Shown: in pieces, positions 9,499 to 19,464 of the stretch | Layout of the letters: each line of letters opens with the position of its first letter | Position numbering within the stretch: the first letter of the stretch is position 1 | Source of the DNA: a virus | DNA length: 30,011 nucleotides | Virus record (IMG/VR): IMGVR_UViG_3300030419_002899 | Coordinates: 1,596-31,606 of that record | Reading direction: 5' to 3' (one strand) | Made by a program: the position numbers and the translations under genes | Notes under the pieces: model-generated | What the model was told of the DNA's origin: nothing | Seen by the model: the letters and a program-made list of their open reading frames with translations, nothing else | Databases searched by the model: none

Positions 9499-9711
9499 TC
9501 ACTTTTCTACTTTTTCTTTATGAACCCAATTTACTGAATAATCTCTTTCTGAATATTTCCATTTCTCATTTACCAATTTTGGTATTTGTGAACATATTTC
9601 ATTAGCAAACCACTCAGCGTCTAAATCTTCATTTTTAGTAGACTTTGGCCCCCAACCTTGGTCAGGAACCCAAATCTCAATAGTAGCATTTACAAAATAT
9701 CTTTTAGCCAT
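9499..9711 (-). CDS. Small hypothetical protein, 70 residues
   Basis: A small charged protein (starts MAKRYFVNATIEIWVPDQGWG) with five tryptophans and a probable beta-strand start followed by a helix (DAEWFANEICSQIPKLVNEKW). It may be a small alpha/beta domain, but no family is recognised. Its start overlaps the end of the upstream gene by 8 nt, so the two are coupled and read from P3. The 49-nt gap that follows holds P2. Confidence 0.75.
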   Translation of the reverse strand: MAKRYFVNATIEIWVPDQGWGPKSTKNEDLDAEWFANEICSQIPKLVNEKWKYSERDYSVNWVHKEKVEK

Positions 9712-9901
9712 TATTGTTCTCGTTTTCTAATTCTTTTTGTAATTCATTTAAAGTGCATTGAGCACCATTTATAAAAGTCCTACCTTCACTAATTTGTAAA
9801 TCCATATTTTCCAAAGTTCCTTGATACTCTGGTAAATTGTTTAATCCATTAGTCAATTCTTGTTCTAATGTATTTAATAATTGTTTAATTTTTTCATTCA
9901 T
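9704..9901 (-). CDS. Small hypothetical helical protein, 65 residues
   Basis: A Glu/Asn/Leu-rich protein (starts MNEKIKQLLNTLEQEL, ends ENENNNG) that looks like two helices, possibly dimerising. No family is recognised. It is the first gene after promoter P3, with a leader of about 14 nt containing AAGGAC as a Shine-Dalgarno site. Its stop overlaps the next small gene, so it heads a two-gene operon. Confidence 0.75.
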   Translation of the reverse strand: MNEKIKQLLNTLEQELTNGLNNLPEYQGTLENMDLQISEGRTFINGAQCTLNELQKELENENNNG

Positions 9902-9921: not shown

Positions 9922-9950
9922 AATATAACCAGAATAGCTGACAAAGTCAA
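9922..9950 (-). promoter_or_regulatory. Sigma70 promoter P3
   Basis: TTGACT (9945-9950), 17 bp, TATATT (9922-9927). It lies 20 nt before the ATG at 9901, leaving a short leader with AAGGAC. This is one of the closest matches to consensus in the window. Confidence 0.8.
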
Positions 9951-10064: not shown

Positions 10065-10093
10065 AATATAATATAGCCCTTTATTAAAGTCAA
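10065..10093 (-). promoter_or_regulatory. Sigma70 promoter P4
   Basis: TTGACT (10088-10093), 17 bp, TATATT (10065-10070), then AAAATAT and the ATG at 10057. The -35 flank (TTGACTTT) is the same as in P1-P3. Confidence 0.75.
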
Positions 10094-10169
10094 CTGCTTT
10101 TTGCAATAAGCTGTGTTGTTTTCGTAGAAGTTTTTAAATTCATAAAATTTTTATTTAATTTGTCTGTTT

Positions 10170-10500
10170 TTTCTGTTAATTTTGTGTTTTTACGCAAAGG
10201 ACACTGGAAATAGTGTCTGATTTTGATTTCTGGTTTTCTCCTGCCCTCCTTCGTTGGTCCTGTGAACTAGCATTTAAGTCTTGTTCGTTGACAATGACTT
10301 TCGTCATCTCCACACACTTCTTGTGTGGACACCCCCAGAATGTATTTCTACAATAAGAGCTATATTCATATATAAGCGACTTACTCAGTATGTCCTCTCG
10401 TGGACTCCTGATGCGAACCTGTGTTTAAATCGATTCTACTCGATAAACTCCCGGTTTATGTTTTGTATTATCATTACTATCTCCTTGTGTTTTGTTTTGT
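10170..10500 (-). other. Non-coding, hairpin-rich region, second block
   Basis: No convincing gene is present on either strand. Several perfect hairpins are visible: 10200-10217 (6 bp), 10294-10307 (5 bp with a tetraloop that reads GAAA on the minus strand, a GNRA loop), 10309-10329 (7 bp TCCACAC/GTGTGGA) and 10443-10459 (6 bp). The base composition is less AT-rich than the neighbouring genes. It may be a continuation of the structured RNA at 10501-10994 or a separate RNA. No promoter directly before it is evident. Positions 10094-10169 hold nothing recognisable. Confidence 0.4.
10436..10474 (-). CDS. Possible 12-residue peptide with strong Shine-Dalgarno site
   Basis: Just after the intrinsic terminator, AAGGAG sits 6 nt before an ATG that opens a short frame (MIIQNINREFIE, then TAG). 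The spacing is good enough for ribosome binding, but the frame is so short that it may be a leader peptide or chance. It lies across the 10443-10459 hairpin. Confidence 0.2.
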   Translation of the reverse strand: MIIQNINREFIE

Positions 10501-10523
10501 AAAAAAAGAGAACCCGTGTTCTC
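10501..10523 (-). terminator. Intrinsic terminator, minus strand
   Basis: GAGAAC and GTTCTC form a 6-bp stem with a 4-nt loop (ACGG), followed directly by seven T. The 3' arm can instead pair with an upstream segment (AGAGAACCC at 10556-10564 with GGGTTCTCT at 10507-10515, 9 bp), giving two mutually exclusive stems before the same T-run. On the plus strand there is no T-run, so direction is clear. Confidence 0.8.
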
Positions 10524-10994
10524 AAGTTTGATATAAGGTGGAAACTGAAAATCTTGGGTTCTCTAAAATTTTGTGGAATTATGTGGGGATGTAGGACTAA
10601 TGATTACCTACAATTTCCGTCTTGGATTTTTTTATTACTTCATACCTCACATCTTTCAGTTACGAAAGTTCTTCTCAACTTGGTTAAAGTCATTGAAGTG
10701 GATACAACTCCTATGTGATTACATTAACTCTCCAAGAGTAGTTTTGTTCTGTCACAAGGTGGGATTTGGTTTTACCCTACCCACAATGAAGTCAATAGAA
10801 TCATCTTCTATTTGTTTTACGGAAATACTTTCTGTATCTTTTGTCAAAGAAAACCGATACAATATTTAGCATCGATTGAGTTACCACAACTCTACAGCGG
10901 ACTACCTTATGAGCTTCCATTGGTTACTCATTATTCGGTCAATCCCATATCAAGATGTACGGTCTTGATACTTTCCAATTCCAATTGTCAAATA
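10501..10994 (-). ncRNA. Candidate large structured non-coding RNA, about 500 nt
   Basis: This stretch lacks a credible gene and ends on the minus strand at a strong intrinsic terminator. It contains many perfect stems: 10948-10970 (8 bp), 10909-10931 (5 bp), 10878-10892 (5 bp), 10855-10874 (6 bp with one GU), 10759-10784 (5 bp), 10727-10739 (5 bp), 10653-10668 (5 bp) and 10590-10612 (6 bp). A 6-bp pairing of 10647-10652 with 10713-10718 would close a multi-branched domain. A candidate promoter (P5) lies just upstream. Size and phage location recall the large ornate RNA classes such as GOLLD and ROOL, but I cannot confirm membership; the boundaries are estimates. Confidence 0.5.
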
Positions 10995-11000
10995 ACTATT

Positions 11001-11029
11001 TTGTTATTACACTTATATATATAAGTCAA
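11001..11029 (-). promoter_or_regulatory. Candidate promoter P5 for the structured RNA
   Basis: TTGACT (11024-11029), 17 bp, TAACAA (11001-11006). The -35 and spacer length match P1-P4, but the -10 box is poor (3 of 6). It would start a transcript near 10994 that ends at the terminator at 10501. Confidence 0.4.
11011..11026. repeat. Perfect 16-bp palindrome
   Basis: ACTTATATATATAAGT is self-complementary over its whole length and overlaps the -35 end of P5. A second inverted repeat (AATAAC/GTTATT, 10991-11008) follows. These could be operator sites or cruciform-prone DNA, or a weak transcript end after the recombination gene. Confidence 0.35.
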
Positions 11030-11061
11030 ATCGCCCAAAATACATTTTTTTTTGCTTTTTT

Positions 11062-14000
11062 TTAATCGAACTTAATTTTACTAAAATCACTATCTTTCGT
11101 GATTTCCAGTAGTGTATCCACTGCATCTCTCATAGAGTCAACATGCGATACAATTAACGCGAATTGGAATTGTGTCTTTAAATATTGGAATAAATTATAG
11201 ACTGAATTGATATTATCACTATCCATTGTTCCCCAACCTTCGTCAATCGCTAAAAAATTACTTCTTGGTAAATTACTTACATTTATTAAACCAACTCTCA
11301 TTGCAAGAGAACTGATAAATCTTTCCATACCACTTGATAATTCTAATGGCCATTGGTTAACATCATCATATACAATATTACTATTAATATTCTTACCATC
11401 CATTTCTAATGCCATTTGGAAGTCAACTAATTGACTTAAAATATTATTTACTTCTCCTTCAATCGTAGGAATTGCTTTTTCAAGTAATTCATATGGAATA
11501 CTATCTCTTCTAACTGCATCTAAATAATAATGGTATGCTTGATTTTGTTTTTCTAATTCTGAAATCTCTTTTATCTTCTTGTTAATGTTTTTCATCTCAT
11601 TATCATTAACTTTTATATCTGAATGAACTTCTGTTATTTCATCATTTAATTCAGAAATATTATCATCTACATCAGACAATTCTAATTCTTTTTTAGATAT
11701 CTTATCTTTAATAGTATCATTAAATTTAATATTGTTTTCTTGTTCTTTATATCGTTTTATCTCACCATTTATTGATTCTATCTGATTTTCTATATTTTGT
11801 TTTCTCTCATTAATATATTGTAAACCATAGTTTAGATTATCTTCCCTTAATTTACCTTCAGATAATTGTGATTTTGCTTTATCTAATTCTTCTTTGAAAG
11901 CACGAACATTGGACATTTTTTCTATCTTTTTATCCATACTTTCTTTCTTTTCCATATATTGATGTGCTAATTCTTTGTCTTTATCAAGATTTTTTTCTGT
12001 TTCAATAGCATCTAATGTTAGTGGATTACTCATACAAAATTCACAATTTTCATCATATTTTACATCTTTTAATTTATCAATCTTATCTAATTTAACTCTA
12101 ACTTCTGCTTTTAATTTATCCAATTCTATTTCAAATAAACTTCTTTCTTTTTCAAGTTTTTCTAATTCTGCATATTGTTCTTGAATATTGTCTTTTTCAT
12201 AAATCTTTATTTTTGATTTTAAATCATCTATAACTGCTGATAAATCATATTGTTCTGTTGTAACATTACTCTCTTCATTATGTGTTGTATCAAGTAATTC
12301 TTCATTTTCAGATTTATCTTTCTCTAATACATCAATATCTCTTATTGTATCATCAACGGGTTTTAATTGTGTTGTTAAGTTAATAATTTGAGAATTTAAG
12401 TCATTGTGTATCTTTGTTTCATCATCTTTCTTACTAAGTAAATCTGTTTGTTTCACTTCTAATATTGTAGTTTCTTTCTGTAAATCTGCTAACATTTTAC
12501 CATAATCAGTTTTATTAAAATCTCTCAATAAAGTTTGTGTTTCAGATATTTTATCATTTGCTGATTGATATAAAGTATCAAAGATATTTGTTCCCATAAA
12601 TGTAGCTAATAACTCTTTTCTTTCTTTTTGTGTCTTATCTATAAAAACTGTGAAATTGTTTTGTGTTGATAATGTAGATAGAATAAAGTCGTCATATGTT
12701 CCAATTACACGATTAATATTATAATTGGTAGTTCTTCTTTGGTCTCCATTTAAACTAACGATATCCCCACCTTCATCAACCATCCAAAAGTTAACATCAA
12801 CCTTAACATGGCCATCTCTACTTCTTGTAGTTGCTTTTCTTTCAATATAATAGTCTAATCCACCAACTTCAAAATTTACTTTACAACTAAAATTCTTTTT
12901 CTTATTATTTAAAACTGAAGCGGCTCTTGTTGTTCTTGAAGTGATATCAAATAAACAAAATGATAAAGCATCTAATAAGGTTGACTTACCAGAAGCGTTT
13001 GGAGCAAACATACCAACAATCCCGTCAAGTTGTGTGAAGTCAACATAATTGTTTTCACCATAACAAAACATATTTGAAAATTCAAAGTTTTTTAATTTCC
13101 AATCTATATTTCTTTTAACTCTTGCTGGTGGTAATTCATTATTGATATCTTCATTTAGAGTTTTAATCTTTACCAACATATCGTCTGTAATAGCGTGGTT
13201 TCGTTTTAAATAATCCTCAATTAATTCATACTGATAATCTGTATCATTAACATCTCCTATTACGACTTGATGTTCTCCTCTAACTCTTTCTCTTCTATCC
13301 ACTCGTGTTATAGTAACATCTTTAATCCCATATCTATGGTGAATAACTGCTAAAGCTTTCTTTAATTGAGCTCCGTCTGTATTAGATATTCTAACTCGTA
13401 ATCTTGCTTTCTTTGGCATTCCTTTTACATCTGGAACTATCCCATTATCAATATCAATAGTATAATATCCAAAATCATTTGGTATTTCAATATATTCTGC
13501 TGTTCTTGTTGGAACTTCCCATAACAAATATCCGTGTCCTATACCTTCTCCGTGATTTTGTTGAATCAGAGAACCACAATAAGCAATAGTTTTTTCTTCG
13601 TTTAAGTATTGTCTTTTATGAATATCACCAATTAGACCCATATCATAATCGTCAAAATAATCTATTGTAACCTTACCTGGTAGTGAAAATCCTACATCAG
13701 TTTTTGACCTATCTACTGTCCCGTGATATAAAACAACTTTCGTATCAGCTTCAAAATCATTTGCTTTAATGTAGTTCTCTTCATCTTCCCATACATCCCA
13801 AACTACAAAACTAACATCTGCAATATCATAGATACCAGAGTGTTTAAGATAGTGTAGATTTGGTAAATTTAAATTATTTATTATAGGTGTTAAAACATCT
13901 AACCTATTTAAATTATTTAAATTACAATCGTGATTACCTGTGATAACTATCGTAGGGCAAATCTCTGAAAGAGATTTTAAGAAACGAGAAGTTTGGTCTA

Positions 14001-14211
14001 CGAGTTCAGGTGACATATCGGTTTTTGAGTGTGCTATATCTCCACCAATATAAATAAGAGAACTATCACGATTTTCTTTTATCTTTTCATACAACTTTTC
14101 AAATACTTGTTCGTATTCTGCGTGTCGTTTTAGATTTCTGATGTGAACATCAGATATATGATGTATGTATTTAATTTCCTTAAAAGGAATATCAATTTTT
14201 GTTCTTTTCAA
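11062..14211 (-). CDS. Fused Mre11-Rad50 (SbcD-SbcC, T4 gp47-gp46) recombination nuclease/ATPase
   Basis: A 1049-residue polypeptide joining both halves of the complex. The N-terminal nuclease (about 1-350) has the Mre11 phosphoesterase motifs DVH (21-23), GGD (56-58), GNHD (92-95), H163 and GDIH (195-198). The Rad50-like part has Walker A PNASGKST (404-411), Q-loop Q517, a long coiled coil broken by a zinc hook CEFC (723-726), signature LSSGMERF (958-965), Walker B FLAIDE (986-991), D-loop GTMD and H1023. It should process DNA ends for phage recombination-dependent replication and host DNA breakdown. In T4 the two activities are separate proteins. The start is a TTG directly after the primase stop; GGGATGG upstream may serve as Shine-Dalgarno site. 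Confidence 0.95.
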   Translation of the reverse strand: MKRTKIDIPFKEIKYIHHISDVHIRNLKRHAEYEQVFEKLYEKIKENRDSSLIYIGGDIAHSKTDMSPELVDQTSRFLKSLSEICPTIVITGNHDCNLNNLNRLDVLTPIINNLNLPNLHYLKHSGIYDIADVSFVVWDVWEDEENYIKANDFEADTKVVLYHGTVDRSKTDVGFSLPGKVTIDYFDDYDMGLIGDIHKRQYLNEEKTIAYCGSLIQQNHGEGIGHGYLLWEVPTRTAEYIEIPNDFGYYTIDIDNGIVPDVKGMPKKARLRVRISNTDGAQLKKALAVIHHRYGIKDVTITRVDRRERVRGEHQVVIGDVNDTDYQYELIEDYLKRNHAITDDMLVKIKTLNEDINNELPPARVKRNIDWKLKNFEFSNMFCYGENNYVDFTQLDGIVGMFAPNASGKSTLLDALSFCLFDITSRTTRAASVLNNKKKNFSCKVNFEVGGLDYYIERKATTRSRDGHVKVDVNFWMVDEGGDIVSLNGDQRRTTNYNINRVIGTYDDFILSTLSTQNNFTVFIDKTQKERKELLATFMGTNIFDTLYQSANDKISETQTLLRDFNKTDYGKMLADLQKETTILEVKQTDLLSKKDDETKIHNDLNSQIINLTTQLKPVDDTIRDIDVLEKDKSENEELLDTTHNEESNVTTEQYDLSAVIDDLKSKIKIYEKDNIQEQYAELEKLEKERSLFEIELDKLKAEVRVKLDKIDKLKDVKYDENCEFCMSNPLTLDAIETEKNLDKDKELAHQYMEKKESMDKKIEKMSNVRAFKEELDKAKSQLSEGKLREDNLNYGLQYINERKQNIENQIESINGEIKRYKEQENNIKFNDTIKDKISKKELELSDVDDNISELNDEITEVHSDIKVNDNEMKNINKKIKEISELEKQNQAYHYYLDAVRRDSIPYELLEKAIPTIEGEVNNILSQLVDFQMALEMDGKNINSNIVYDDVNQWPLELSSGMERFISSLAMRVGLINVSNLPRSNFLAIDEGWGTMDSDNINSVYNLFQYLKTQFQFALIVSHVDSMRDAVDTLLEITKDSDFSKIKFD

Positions 14212-15504: not shown

Positions 15505-18500
15505 TTACTTGTATTTTTTAATGTGTTTATTTACTTCTCTTCTTGCCCATTTTTCAGCTGCTATTTCATATGGATTGTCGTCGTGGAAATCTCCACCTTT
15601 TTGTATAGCTATCTCTCCTGCTGTAGTATACATTTTTACGAATTTCTTTTTACCATATCTTTTACTATCCATAGCGTGATAAATTTCGTGTAAAACTGTA
15701 ATTAAAAAATCTCTCATACTTGAATAAAATGGTCTCAATACTATAACATTTCTATCAAAATCATAATCAGCTTTTGTTGTTCCTGATTTAAATTCTAATT
15801 TTGAATGAACTCTATATTTTTTTATCAATTCTTTTGCTATTTGACGAAAATCCACTCTTTCTAATACTAATTTAAAATTTTCGTTTGTCATCTTCTTTAA
15901 TAATCTTTGTTTTCTTACCCAAGATAATCCGATTTTATTTTTAATTGGTCTTTTGACAAATTTACTGATACCTCTTTTTACCAACATATTAAATCTTCTT
16001 TGTGCACTTTCTTCATCTAAATCTTTATTATTGTCTATAATCAAAAAGTTTCCACCAAATAGTCCTTGAAGTCCACCAATATTCTTTGTAACTGCTCTGT
16101 GTGAATCTCTAACTATTTTTTCAGGTAAAACTCTATCTCTGTTTTCATTTCTTTTTAGTGCTACTTCTAAAGAAGTATTAATAAAAATCATATAAGTATC
16201 ATATCCTTTTTTCTCTACTTCTTTCTTTTGTTGTCTTATCTCTTTAAAGTCATCACCAGTTCCGTCAATAATCATACCTAAACGACCATCCATATATTGT
16301 TTTTTTCTAACACCAGTTAATTCTTTAGCGAAAGTTCTTAAACCACTATAATCTGAATAACTTGGGTCTGTTAATTGTCTAAAGAGTTCGTCTGGTAGTA
16401 AATCTAAATTAGTTCCAAAACCATATTTGTTTAATAAGAATTTTAATTCTTTATCTGAATTTACCATTTTTAAACCAGATTGTGAAACATTAACTCTATC
16501 AGGTATTCCGAATAATCCTCTTGCTACCCAAGTTTTTCCACTACCAGGCCCACCTGCTAAAAATACCGCTTTTAGAATTCCAGGGTCATTAACTCCTTCT
16601 ACAACTACATCTGCGTCTTTAATAGCACTTTTTTTAGGTTTCTCATCCGTTGTCACAAATGTATCATATTTGTCGTGCGGTGAGTGTTCGTATTGACGAA
16701 CTTTCAATTTTATTTTTGGTTTGTGATTACCTGGTAATCTGTTTTCTACACCTACAAATTTTACTGCTCCAGGTATTAGATATAAAGTCATTTCGTTCTT
16801 ATTTAAATTCATTAGAATTTGACTTGAAGTCCATAATTTGTTTTGAGCTCTAACTAAATCATATTTAGGCCCCATATCTTGTGTGTGATTGTAAAATTGT
16901 GGAAATATTTCTTTATATTTATTTGTTTTGTTTAACAAATTTAATGCGTTTTTCATTCGTAGTTCAGACGAAACTCTGTCTTCACCTCTTGTATATCCTT
17001 GTTCTGGGTGTTCAATCCCGTGATTAGAACGAACCAATGGTGATTTACTAATATCGTGGATTTTTACTTTTGGTTTTGTTCTACTTGTATTTTCAATAGC
17101 AACTAATTTTTCTCCATCACTTACAAGTGTATGTCCTTTAACACCAGTATCAAACCCAACCAATGATTCTACAACTTCTTTCAATGTGTCTTTTGATAAT
17201 GCGTGTCTAATACGAATTCCGTCTTTGGAAGGAGCTTTCTTTTTCTTTGATTTATCAAAGTCTTTTTCATCTCTTTTTACGAATAGTGCTGAATTAACCA
17301 ATCCAATACCTTTAGAGTTCATACCTTCAGACCAATCTGTATCTTGGTCAACCATATAACAAAGTTCTACACCATTACCACTCATCTCTCTAACGACTTT
17401 TAGTTCTGGTGTATAGTTTCTATCACGATTTTTTCCTAATACAATATCATCACCACATTTTTTTGAGAATGCTACACATTCACTTACTTGTTTTTTTGGT
17501 AATCTAAATTTTAAAGCTGGTTTACCATTGAATAGTAAATCTCCTTTTTCGTTCCATTTTATAGTTTTTATTTTTACTTTTTTATTTTTGAACCTACCCA
17601 TTTTTACGGTATCACCGACTTTTATTGGAATTTTAATGTCTTCTTTTAGAACACCTTCCATTGTCATTATCTTATCATAAGCATCGTCTTTCATTTTAGA
17701 AATCATTGCGATAAATGGTGACCTACGAAGTGCTTTGAATGCGAGATTTTCAACTGAAAACTCACCACCTCTTTCTAATCCTGATTGTCTCATTCTTTTT
17801 AATTTAGTTTTTATACTTTCAATCATTTGGATTACTTTTTTATACCTACCAAGACTCATTAGTTCTTTCAGAGTATTAATAGAACCTACATATCCTTCAG
17901 CCTTTGAACGAATATCGTCAAAGTCTATTTTTAATTCTTTCTTTTTTGGAATAACTAACCATTTGTTGTGTAATATTGAATATAACCCAGAAGCTATGTG
18001 AGTATCACCTATATCTTCTACATAAACTTCTACTGGAAAATCATAAATTGTAATATCGTGTTTGTCGTTCCATATAGTTTTTTTAGCTAACATATAATTT
18101 TTTACAAAATCTTTATCGTCATCTATTTCACTAAAATCTAATCGTAGATGTAAATCTACATCTGAAAATTTTGACCAATTGTAATTTGAAATACTACCTG
18201 TTAAAGTTATATCGTGTAGTTTTACATTTGGTTCTAATTCTAATTCTTTAAAAAAGTCATTACCAATTTTTCTTAATTTTTTTAGGATTTCTACTTTTAA
18301 CTTTCCGTTTTCCCATATTTTAGGATTTAGGTTGTCTTGGATAGTAAAACTTTTAATGACATCTGGTGATATGTCTTCTTTTACTTTCTTTCTTGATTTT
18401 GGATTTAATGGGCCTTCTAAATATCTTCTTGATATATCACTATATTTTTTATTTGATTCTTTAACTATTGTTTCTGTTAAATCTTCTGGTTCTTGTAAAG

Positions 18501-19464
18501 TAATAATTTTTATTGTTCTACCATTTGACATTTTTTTAGTTTCTATTGAAACAACTTTTGCTTTTGATTTAGAACTACGAATAATTTCTTTTTCACGGTC
18601 TATTTCACTTGCCTCATCTCCGTCAACATATAAACCTCTTATTTGTCCTTTTGAGTTTGGTATTATTCTAAATAGGATTGATGTTTTATTTTTAGCGTCT
18701 TCTTTAGGTTCATCAGCATCAACTCTTGCAAAATGTCTTGCTTCTTTATTACTTATACTAAATCCACTTGAACCGTGTCCTGATTCATCTGGTATTTCAA
18801 CCATTTCTCCAATTTCAAATTCACTTAATATTAAGTCTGCTACATCATTGTCAACATCTATTCCTCTTTCTATTGGTTTATCAACCTTAGTAACAGTCTT
18901 ATGAGCTAAATTACTCATCCTTTCATTTCTATCTCGGATTTCTTGTTCTGTTATGTCTCCGTCTTCAATAGCATTTTGAATAGCTTCAAATCCACCATAT
19001 CTTTTCCAACTTTTAATATCTGTTTCTAATTGTTTTTGTTCTTTTTTTGATAATTTCTTTTTTTGTTCTTGATATTGATTTTCCACATCTTGTGTAATTT
19101 TCTCAATATCGTGACCTTCATCTCCTTTGTAATAAAAATCATCAGAAAAATGTTTATCATCTTTTTTATTTCTCATAACATCAACACCATTTTTCATATT
19201 TGGTTTTCTATCTGGTCTTGCTAATGCTTTTTCTCTCTTTTTTCTTCCTTTTTCTTTAGCCTTTGCAATATCTTCTGGTGAAAATTTCGGTGTTTTAAAT
19301 TTAAATTTAGGAACTTTAATAAATAAATTTGATTTTTTTGTTTTTTGTTTCTTTTTAATTGGCGTAGAACGACCAGCTTTAATTGCTTTATCTCTTGCTT
19401 CTTTAGACTGGTATGTTACAACTCTACCAGTTTTTTTTGATATTGCTTTAAAAACTTTAGACAT
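15505..19464 (-). CDS. Giant polyvalent protein: ADP-ribosyltransferase, nucleotidyltransferase, Ntn hydrolase, P-loop kinase and zincin domains
   Basis: A 1319-residue protein with five enzyme signatures in order. (1) R-S-E-type ADP-ribosyltransferase, ~190-310: IERG (R200), FSIS (235-238), EKE (291-293). (2) Nucleotidyltransferase, ~385-500: GS (423-424), DVD (435-437) and a third acid E479. (3) Ntn hydrolase resembling the choloylglycine hydrolase/C45 group, ~663-900: C663 followed by GKNRDRN. (4) Zeta-toxin/polynucleotide-kinase-like P-loop, ~960-1150: GGPGSGKT (971-978), IIDGTGDD. (5) Metallopeptidase, ~1200-1319: HEIYH (1259-1263) with E1300/E1304. The N-terminus is Lys-rich. The layout matches the polyvalent proteins of phages and conjugative elements, thought to be injected with DNA to modify host proteins. 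Position next to virion genes supports packaging (inference). AGGAG precedes the ATG. Confidence 0.88.
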   Translation of the reverse strand: MSKVFKAISKKTGRVVTYQSKEARDKAIKAGRSTPIKKKQKTKKSNLFIKVPKFKFKTPKFSPEDIAKAKEKGRKKREKALARPDRKPNMKNGVDVMRNKKDDKHFSDDFYYKGDEGHDIEKITQDVENQYQEQKKKLSKKEQKQLETDIKSWKRYGGFEAIQNAIEDGDITEQEIRDRNERMSNLAHKTVTKVDKPIERGIDVDNDVADLILSEFEIGEMVEIPDESGHGSSGFSISNKEARHFARVDADEPKEDAKNKTSILFRIIPNSKGQIRGLYVDGDEASEIDREKEIIRSSKSKAKVVSIETKKMSNGRTIKIITLQEPEDLTETIVKESNKKYSDISRRYLEGPLNPKSRKKVKEDISPDVIKSFTIQDNLNPKIWENGKLKVEILKKLRKIGNDFFKELELEPNVKLHDITLTGSISNYNWSKFSDVDLHLRLDFSEIDDDKDFVKNYMLAKKTIWNDKHDITIYDFPVEVYVEDIGDTHIASGLYSILHNKWLVIPKKKELKIDFDDIRSKAEGYVGSINTLKELMSLGRYKKVIQMIESIKTKLKRMRQSGLERGGEFSVENLAFKALRRSPFIAMISKMKDDAYDKIMTMEGVLKEDIKIPIKVGDTVKMGRFKNKKVKIKTIKWNEKGDLLFNGKPALKFRLPKKQVSECVAFSKKCGDDIVLGKNRDRNYTPELKVVREMSGNGVELCYMVDQDTDWSEGMNSKGIGLVNSALFVKRDEKDFDKSKKKKAPSKDGIRIRHALSKDTLKEVVESLVGFDTGVKGHTLVSDGEKLVAIENTSRTKPKVKIHDISKSPLVRSNHGIEHPEQGYTRGEDRVSSELRMKNALNLLNKTNKYKEIFPQFYNHTQDMGPKYDLVRAQNKLWTSSQILMNLNKNEMTLYLIPGAVKFVGVENRLPGNHKPKIKLKVRQYEHSPHDKYDTFVTTDEKPKKSAIKDADVVVEGVNDPGILKAVFLAGGPGSGKTWVARGLFGIPDRVNVSQSGLKMVNSDKELKFLLNKYGFGTNLDLLPDELFRQLTDPSYSDYSGLRTFAKELTGVRKKQYMDGRLGMIIDGTGDDFKEIRQQKKEVEKKGYDTYMIFINTSLEVALKRNENRDRVLPEKIVRDSHRAVTKNIGGLQGLFGGNFLIIDNNKDLDEESAQRRFNMLVKRGISKFVKRPIKNKIGLSWVRKQRLLKKMTNENFKLVLERVDFRQIAKELIKKYRVHSKLEFKSGTTKADYDFDRNVIVLRPFYSSMRDFLITVLHEIYHAMDSKRYGKKKFVKMYTTAGEIAIQKGGDFHDDNPYEIAAEKWARREVNKHIKKYK

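Follow-up and report, generated by a model that had tools for sequence, protein, structure and literature searches.

A double manA RNA of nested architecture on the minus strand of a viral genome stretch

The viral DNA stretch analysed here (hereafter the window, 30,011 nucleotides) carries on its minus strand, between 11008 and 10501, a structured RNA and not a gene. This RNA does not found a new family, as its core is the known manA motif (RF01745); what is new is a nested double architecture in which, as judged from the comparison of relatives, a second manA module (10792-10637) is inserted within P7 of the first. Sequence comparison establishes the fold, this nesting, the terminator, a conserved upstream box and the lack of a reading frame. 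The element is probably a double manA RNA gene running from about 11008 to 10501, equipped with its own promoter and terminator and acting in trans.

Since 2010, manA has stood as an orphan "riboswitch candidate". The doubled, nested form is kept in 44 viral contigs and brings its own terminator, and manA occurs once per phage genome near unrelated genes; this speaks for a stand-alone RNA and against a gene switch, and makes the role of manA accessible to test. The insertion of a complete structured RNA into a stem of another RNA of the same kind also illustrates clearly how RNAs can grow by modules. In the accessible text of Rfam 14 (PMC7779021) and Weinberg 2010 (PMC2864571), manA is a single domain, and a non-exhaustive search of the accessible literature on the manA motif and RF01745 returned no description of a nested, tandem or doubled form.

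A noncoding gap read on the minus strand

The gap is bordered by a minus-strand Mre11-Rad50 fusion gene (11062-14211) with a Metallophos domain at its N terminus and, on the other side, by the nearest minus-strand ORF that reaches 60 amino acids (9704-9901). An ORF search found no credible gene on the transcribed minus strand from 11061 to 9902, and the plus-strand ORFs of 70-98 amino acids in the gap are not conserved among 43 relatives, in which the longest antisense stop-free stretch spans 43-75 codons versus 100 in the window. A coding gap was thus rejected, since no reading frame is conserved across relatives, in agreement with the earlier note, which had seen no credible gene there. Its remark that the gap is less AT-rich also holds, G+C reaching 33-36% versus 24-31% in most flanking segments.

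Both strands of 10094-11061 gave more stable folds than shuffled sequence (z = -5.4 each, against 20 shuffles only); as both strands fold equally well, the strand has to be assigned from other evidence. The Rfam match, the terminator and the covariation alike indicate the minus strand. A plus-strand RNA was rejected: taken alone it folds as well, but models and covariation point to the minus strand. The element is about 500 nt long, its 5' hairpin starting at 11008 and the U-tract of the terminator ending at 10501, so that the span of 10501-10994 first proposed was nearly exact.

Assignment to manA

RF01745 is the sole match in a cmscan of the window, and a second, weaker match sits immediately 5' of the main one:

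10586-10781, minus strand: manA Rfam match covering the inner module and the 3' half of outer P7, P8 and the closing arm (RF01745, 71.3 bits, cut-off 55.2, E 1.8e-16)
10760-10970, minus strand: outer manA module, Rfam match covering P1-P6 and the start of P7 (27.2 bits, E 2.4e-5 in a permissive 301-nt scan, below the gathering score)

Among relatives, the main match scores 60.3 bits in L003 and 57.3 bits in L001 (gathering cut-off 55.2). The weak upstream match recurs in L001 (25.0 bits) and L002 (22.7 bits), and the more distant L067 has it at the same position with 36.8 bits (E 3.6e-10).

The gap had been proposed to hold a possible new large structured RNA comparable with GOLLD or ROOL. It does hold a large structured noncoding phage RNA, whose size and setting resemble theirs; the novelty as a family does not stand, the core being manA. 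GOLLD and ROOL are known as large ornate RNAs of phages or prophages whose function is open (cf. PMC12286853). The window RNA shares the ornate size and phage setting but is built from manA modules and matches them neither in sequence nor by model. The Rfam models for GOLLD, ROOL, HEARO and group I/II introns matched neither at the gathering level nor at E<=5, and matches to RAGATH-12 and S774 were rejected as far under the cut-off. A large RNA family without known kin, to which size, multi-branched fold, phage setting and an adjoining block without Rfam match (block B, below) would lend themselves, is extremely improbable in view of the 71.3-bit match, and is excluded for 10586-10970.

The likeness to manA, as far as the accessible description goes (RF01745; PMC2864571), comprises P1, the closing helix, P2, P3-P6, P7, P8, the conserved UGACNGAANAA and GUANNCANUA motifs and the phage setting. 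The score exceeds the gathering value and the helix closing P2-P8 is present, but it encloses both modules. P7 does not end in a short hairpin but carries a whole second manA module, which makes the RNA a variant and not a standard member; it further differs in its outer closing helix (GGGAU/AUCCC), its own terminator and upstream box, and a length of about 500 nt versus about 190. As to placement in a cis-regulatory 5' UTR, no gene directly follows in the window, while most relatives precede gp32.

Relatives and alignment

Three relatives with the same gap (L001, L002, L003) were found via the flanking gene and a fourth (L015) via a pattern. Two further pattern scans, the first fixing an AUCCCC arm and the second leaving the arm free, led to 44 viral sequences, window included, in which the double form can be followed from copy 1 into the terminator region. 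The closing arm is kept even in the scan that left it free, with two cases of GUCCC. The spacing between the two UGANNGAA motifs is near 186-190 nt. Matches without copy 1, such as L283 and L289, were excluded. A blastn search did not find the nested RNA in cultured phages, and manA is absent from Microcystis phage Mel-JY01, the nearest cultured relative. The 20 sequences forming the non-redundant set (<95% identity) were aligned with MAFFT and submitted to RNAalifold, which yielded 110 pairs.

Nested fold and covariation

The outer module runs through P1, the closing helix, P2, P3-P6 and P7, with P8 and the 3' closing arm lying beyond the inner module:

10942-10946, minus strand: outer closing helix, 5' arm GGGAU, paired with 10590-10586 in 20 of 20 sequences
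10586-10590, minus strand: outer closing helix, 3' arm AUCCC, paired with GGGAU 10946-10942
10819-10826, minus strand: outer P7, 5' strand, paired with 10620-10613 (5 of 8 pairs doubly changed, 99.4% paired)
10613-10620, minus strand: outer P7, 3' strand, paired with 10826-10819
10637-10792, minus strand: inner manA module in P7 (closing helix 10792-10787/10642-10637, P1'-P6'), with covariation
10591-10611, minus strand: hairpin P8, GUAGG/CCUAC replaced by GUGAG/CUCAC, 2 of 5 pairs changed on both sides

Both the outer closing helix (10946-10942/10590-10586) and P7 (10826-10819/10620-10613) span the insertion, and the two closing arms fall in the outer and the composite Rfam match respectively, as nesting predicts. 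The inner closing helix is fully paired (100%), four of its six pairs being changed on both sides, and compensatory changes occur in all of P1'-P6'. Across the 20 relatives, 98.4% of cells in the whole structure are paired versus 87.1% after shuffling and at most 47% in slid controls, in which partners were shifted by one to three columns. Changes on both sides affect 62 of 110 pairs (slid, at most 18) and 233 cells (slid, at most 33), these counts ignoring phylogeny and most sequences forming one clade; the covariation score is 0.370 versus 0.151 shuffled and at most 0.088 slid. The four helices that define the nesting are by themselves 99.6% paired, with 9 of 23 pairs doubly changed versus 0-1 in slid controls. 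Folded alone to minimum energy and without constraints, the window sequence reproduces 96 of 109 consensus pairs, and other relatives reproduce 42 to 86. The stems and the stem-closed multi-branched domain described in the earlier note are real, the majority of the stems varying in a compensatory manner, and the search for compensatory changes in related phages that it had proposed brought strong covariation.

Within the nested group, the outer closing helix is invariant except for one U-G; its U-A pair (U-G in one) stands against G-C elsewhere in the family. Across 118 manA loci, the helix takes the forms GGGAG, GUGGG, UCUUG and further ones, each with a tail to match, which shows it to be real in the family. 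GGGAU/AUCCC is thereby best taken as another compensated version of the family closing helix, on the strength of its contrast with the remaining family.

The side-by-side pair of Rfam matches could suggest two independent tandem manA RNAs, each folding by itself, and L067 does have a possible closing arm for a second copy (UCUUG with CAAGA). The first copy, however, has no P8 and no 3' closing arm of its own, most relatives show no separate 5' arm for the second, and P7 forms across the two copies, its 5' strand coming from the first and its 3' strand from the second, with both sides changed in 5 of 8 pairs. A simple tandem was rejected as a general account on the covariation of P7 and the inner closing helix, and this arrangement is very improbable. 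The nested arrangement also differs from glycine-type tandem riboswitches, in which two related aptamer-like domains are likewise joined in one RNA: here one module sits inside a stem of the other and not beside it.

Two loops could connect the modules:

10883-10887, minus strand: outer P4 loop GUGGU, invariant, candidate contact with 10686-10681
10681-10686, minus strand: apical loop of inner P5', UAACCA, conserved in almost every element read (UAACCC in L314)

The stem under UAACCA has been replaced several times (ACUU/AAGU, AGG/CCU, AUGA/UCAU, UAGA/UCUA). The outer P6 loop is GACA versus ACCA in the manA family, and inner P4' (UUGU) and P6' (GUAA) are still able to pair as in the family. 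A cross-module kissing contact between GUGGU and UAACCA, both nearly invariant, is therefore possible.

A probable transcription unit

Signals at both ends delimit the RNA:

11012-11025, minus strand: late-promoter-like box CTTATATATATAAG, a conserved upstream motif
10991-11008, minus strand: 5' hairpin P0 (AATAAC..GTTATT) where the transcript is expected to start, in the same place with different paired sequences in most relatives
10501-10564, minus strand: intrinsic terminator, a long hairpin with U-tract, supported by a scan match and stem covariation

At the position of the box, TATATATAA is found in 33 of 43 nested relatives, 27 of which also have TATAAATA (T4-type late box), versus backgrounds of 0.012 and 0.023 per 160 nt, respectively. 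P0 exchanges its paired sequences, e.g., TTACTTGA/TCAAGTAA and ATACTAA/TTAGTAT (not formally counted), and is absent or weak in L001 and L292. The minus-strand terminator proposed by the earlier note is confirmed: its outer stem has all seven of seven pairs changed on both sides in 20 sequences, with versions such as GAGAACCC/GGGUUCUC, AGAGAGCC/GGCUCUCU, GCCCC/GGGGC and GUGAGCC/GGCUCAC.

The layout of an aptamer immediately followed by a terminator is that of a usual attenuator, and Rfam and Weinberg 2010 (PMC2864571), in their accessible text, class manA as cis-regulatory. The RNA might accordingly be a leader, its double manA aptamer responding to a ligand or protein (possibly gp32) and thereby controlling read-through into the downstream sequence. 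No conserved antiterminator was found, however, in a comparison of own with swapped relatives: upstream complementarity to the 5' terminator arm is 12.65 for own versus 12.69 for swapped sequences, and to the 3' arm 15.78 versus 14.92 (sd 1.67). The antiterminator was rejected on this lack of signal; arms that change with no upstream segment tracking them argue against it and thus against the leader. The terminator of the window is followed only by a 12-codon ORF and block B, and in L292 a TTGACT-17-TAAGAT promoter comes directly after it.

Genomic neighbourhood of nested and single manA

Most nested RNAs are followed, about 95 nt past the terminator, by a gene for a gp32-type ssDNA-binding protein (PHROG 1192/224); in L286 an extra ORF separates the two, the window group follows Mre11-Rad50, and L292 lies elsewhere. 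Single manA was sampled by pattern scan as 117 members (L026-L143) that are not independent; among the matches listed, a gp32-like ORF directly follows in 74 of 117, gp32 starts 37-60 nt after most copies, and the remaining ones precede transaldolase, thymidylate synthase and other genes. The accessible part of the 2010 manA description does not mention this link with gp32, which keeps the cis-acting leader alive as the main rival, albeit an unlikely one.

Six complete cyanophage genomes, searched whole, contain exactly one manA each. Its neighbours in cultured cyanophages include gp32 (P-HM2), pstS (P-SSM4, P-SSM3), regA/purL (P-SSM2), ferredoxin (P-SSM7), transaldolase (P-RSM6) and gp23 (S-SSM5, P-HM1, P-RSM4, MED4-213), and in S-CREM1 (OP535465 10132-10501, L249) it is packed with hardly any spacing between the genes for tRNA-Leu and tRNA-Asn. 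One manA per genome near unrelated genes is unexpected for a switch of a single gene and expected for a single-copy trans-acting RNA. Taken with the compensatory replacement of the terminator stem, the upstream box, the terminator arms that nothing upstream tracks and the differing neighbours of the nested RNA, it favours a stand-alone, late and probably trans-acting RNA over the "cis-regulatory" label.

Such a stand-alone RNA would be transcribed late from its own promoter, would end constitutively at its own terminator and would act in trans as a folded molecule. The P7 of one manA domain has opened to hold the second module, with P1'-P6' on its own closing helix; two manA units would thus be linked in one covalent chain, perhaps held together by the GUGGU/UAACCA loop-loop contact. 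The best guess for a partner is one met late in infection, e.g., the translation machinery or the phage particle. It is a doubtful, tentative extension that manA in general is a late RNA which T4-like phages carry once per genome and which acts in trans and as a pair of units, the nested form being a natural single-chain dimer in which the GUGGU/ACCA contact has moved from within to between units.

Low-scoring manA matches in L088, L097 and L122 likewise adjoin tRNA arrays. In cultured cyanophages (L338, L339, L342, L343), annotated hypothetical ORFs such as PHM2_011, PHM2_012, PSSM4_169.1, SSSM5_127 and PHM1_121 coincide in part with manA and may be spurious. GUGGG-type single manA (L040, L044, L058, L068, L080, L091, L106) is followed by strong terminator-like hairpins of -18 to -31 kcal/mol, from which the GGGAG type differs. 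L067 has at 560-670 a perfect hairpin (ACGAGTCGA..TCGACTCGT) 5' of nested manA, longer than in other relatives.

Block B and other features of the window

Directly behind the terminator, the gap contains a second conserved block:

10225-10500, minus strand: block B, noncoding, present in L001, L002 and L015, diverged in L003
10436-10474, minus strand: ORF of 12 codons, MIIQNINREFIE, preceded by AAGGAG where block B begins; L001, L002 and L015 share its start codon and length, and L003 has 10 codons

Block B is probably structured. It lies within a gap about 80% identical in L001/L002, and its hairpins display a few compensatory changes; no Rfam family matches it. The AAGGAG before the ORF resembles a ribosome-binding site. 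Carriers in the searched data are five sequences only, window included; pattern matches in the contig set (24), in 108 viral stretches and in L332/L333 were rejected as chance or coding, bar the five known contigs. The 3' part of block B, ACAAGUCUUAAAUGCUA..GCAGGAGAAAACCAG, persists even in the diverged L003.

Near-copies of a TTGACT-17-TATATT promoter occur on the minus strand at 10065-10093 and 9922-9950, the former lying ahead of a four-cysteine ORF of 32 aa (MKKCDNCNTDKFVGTIFYPTLCIPCIIKLRKK) that is not in the ORF list. A 1319-aa protein encoded at 15505-19464 (minus strand) has a C-terminal Zeta_toxin/AAA_33 kinase-like match (E 2.4e-8).
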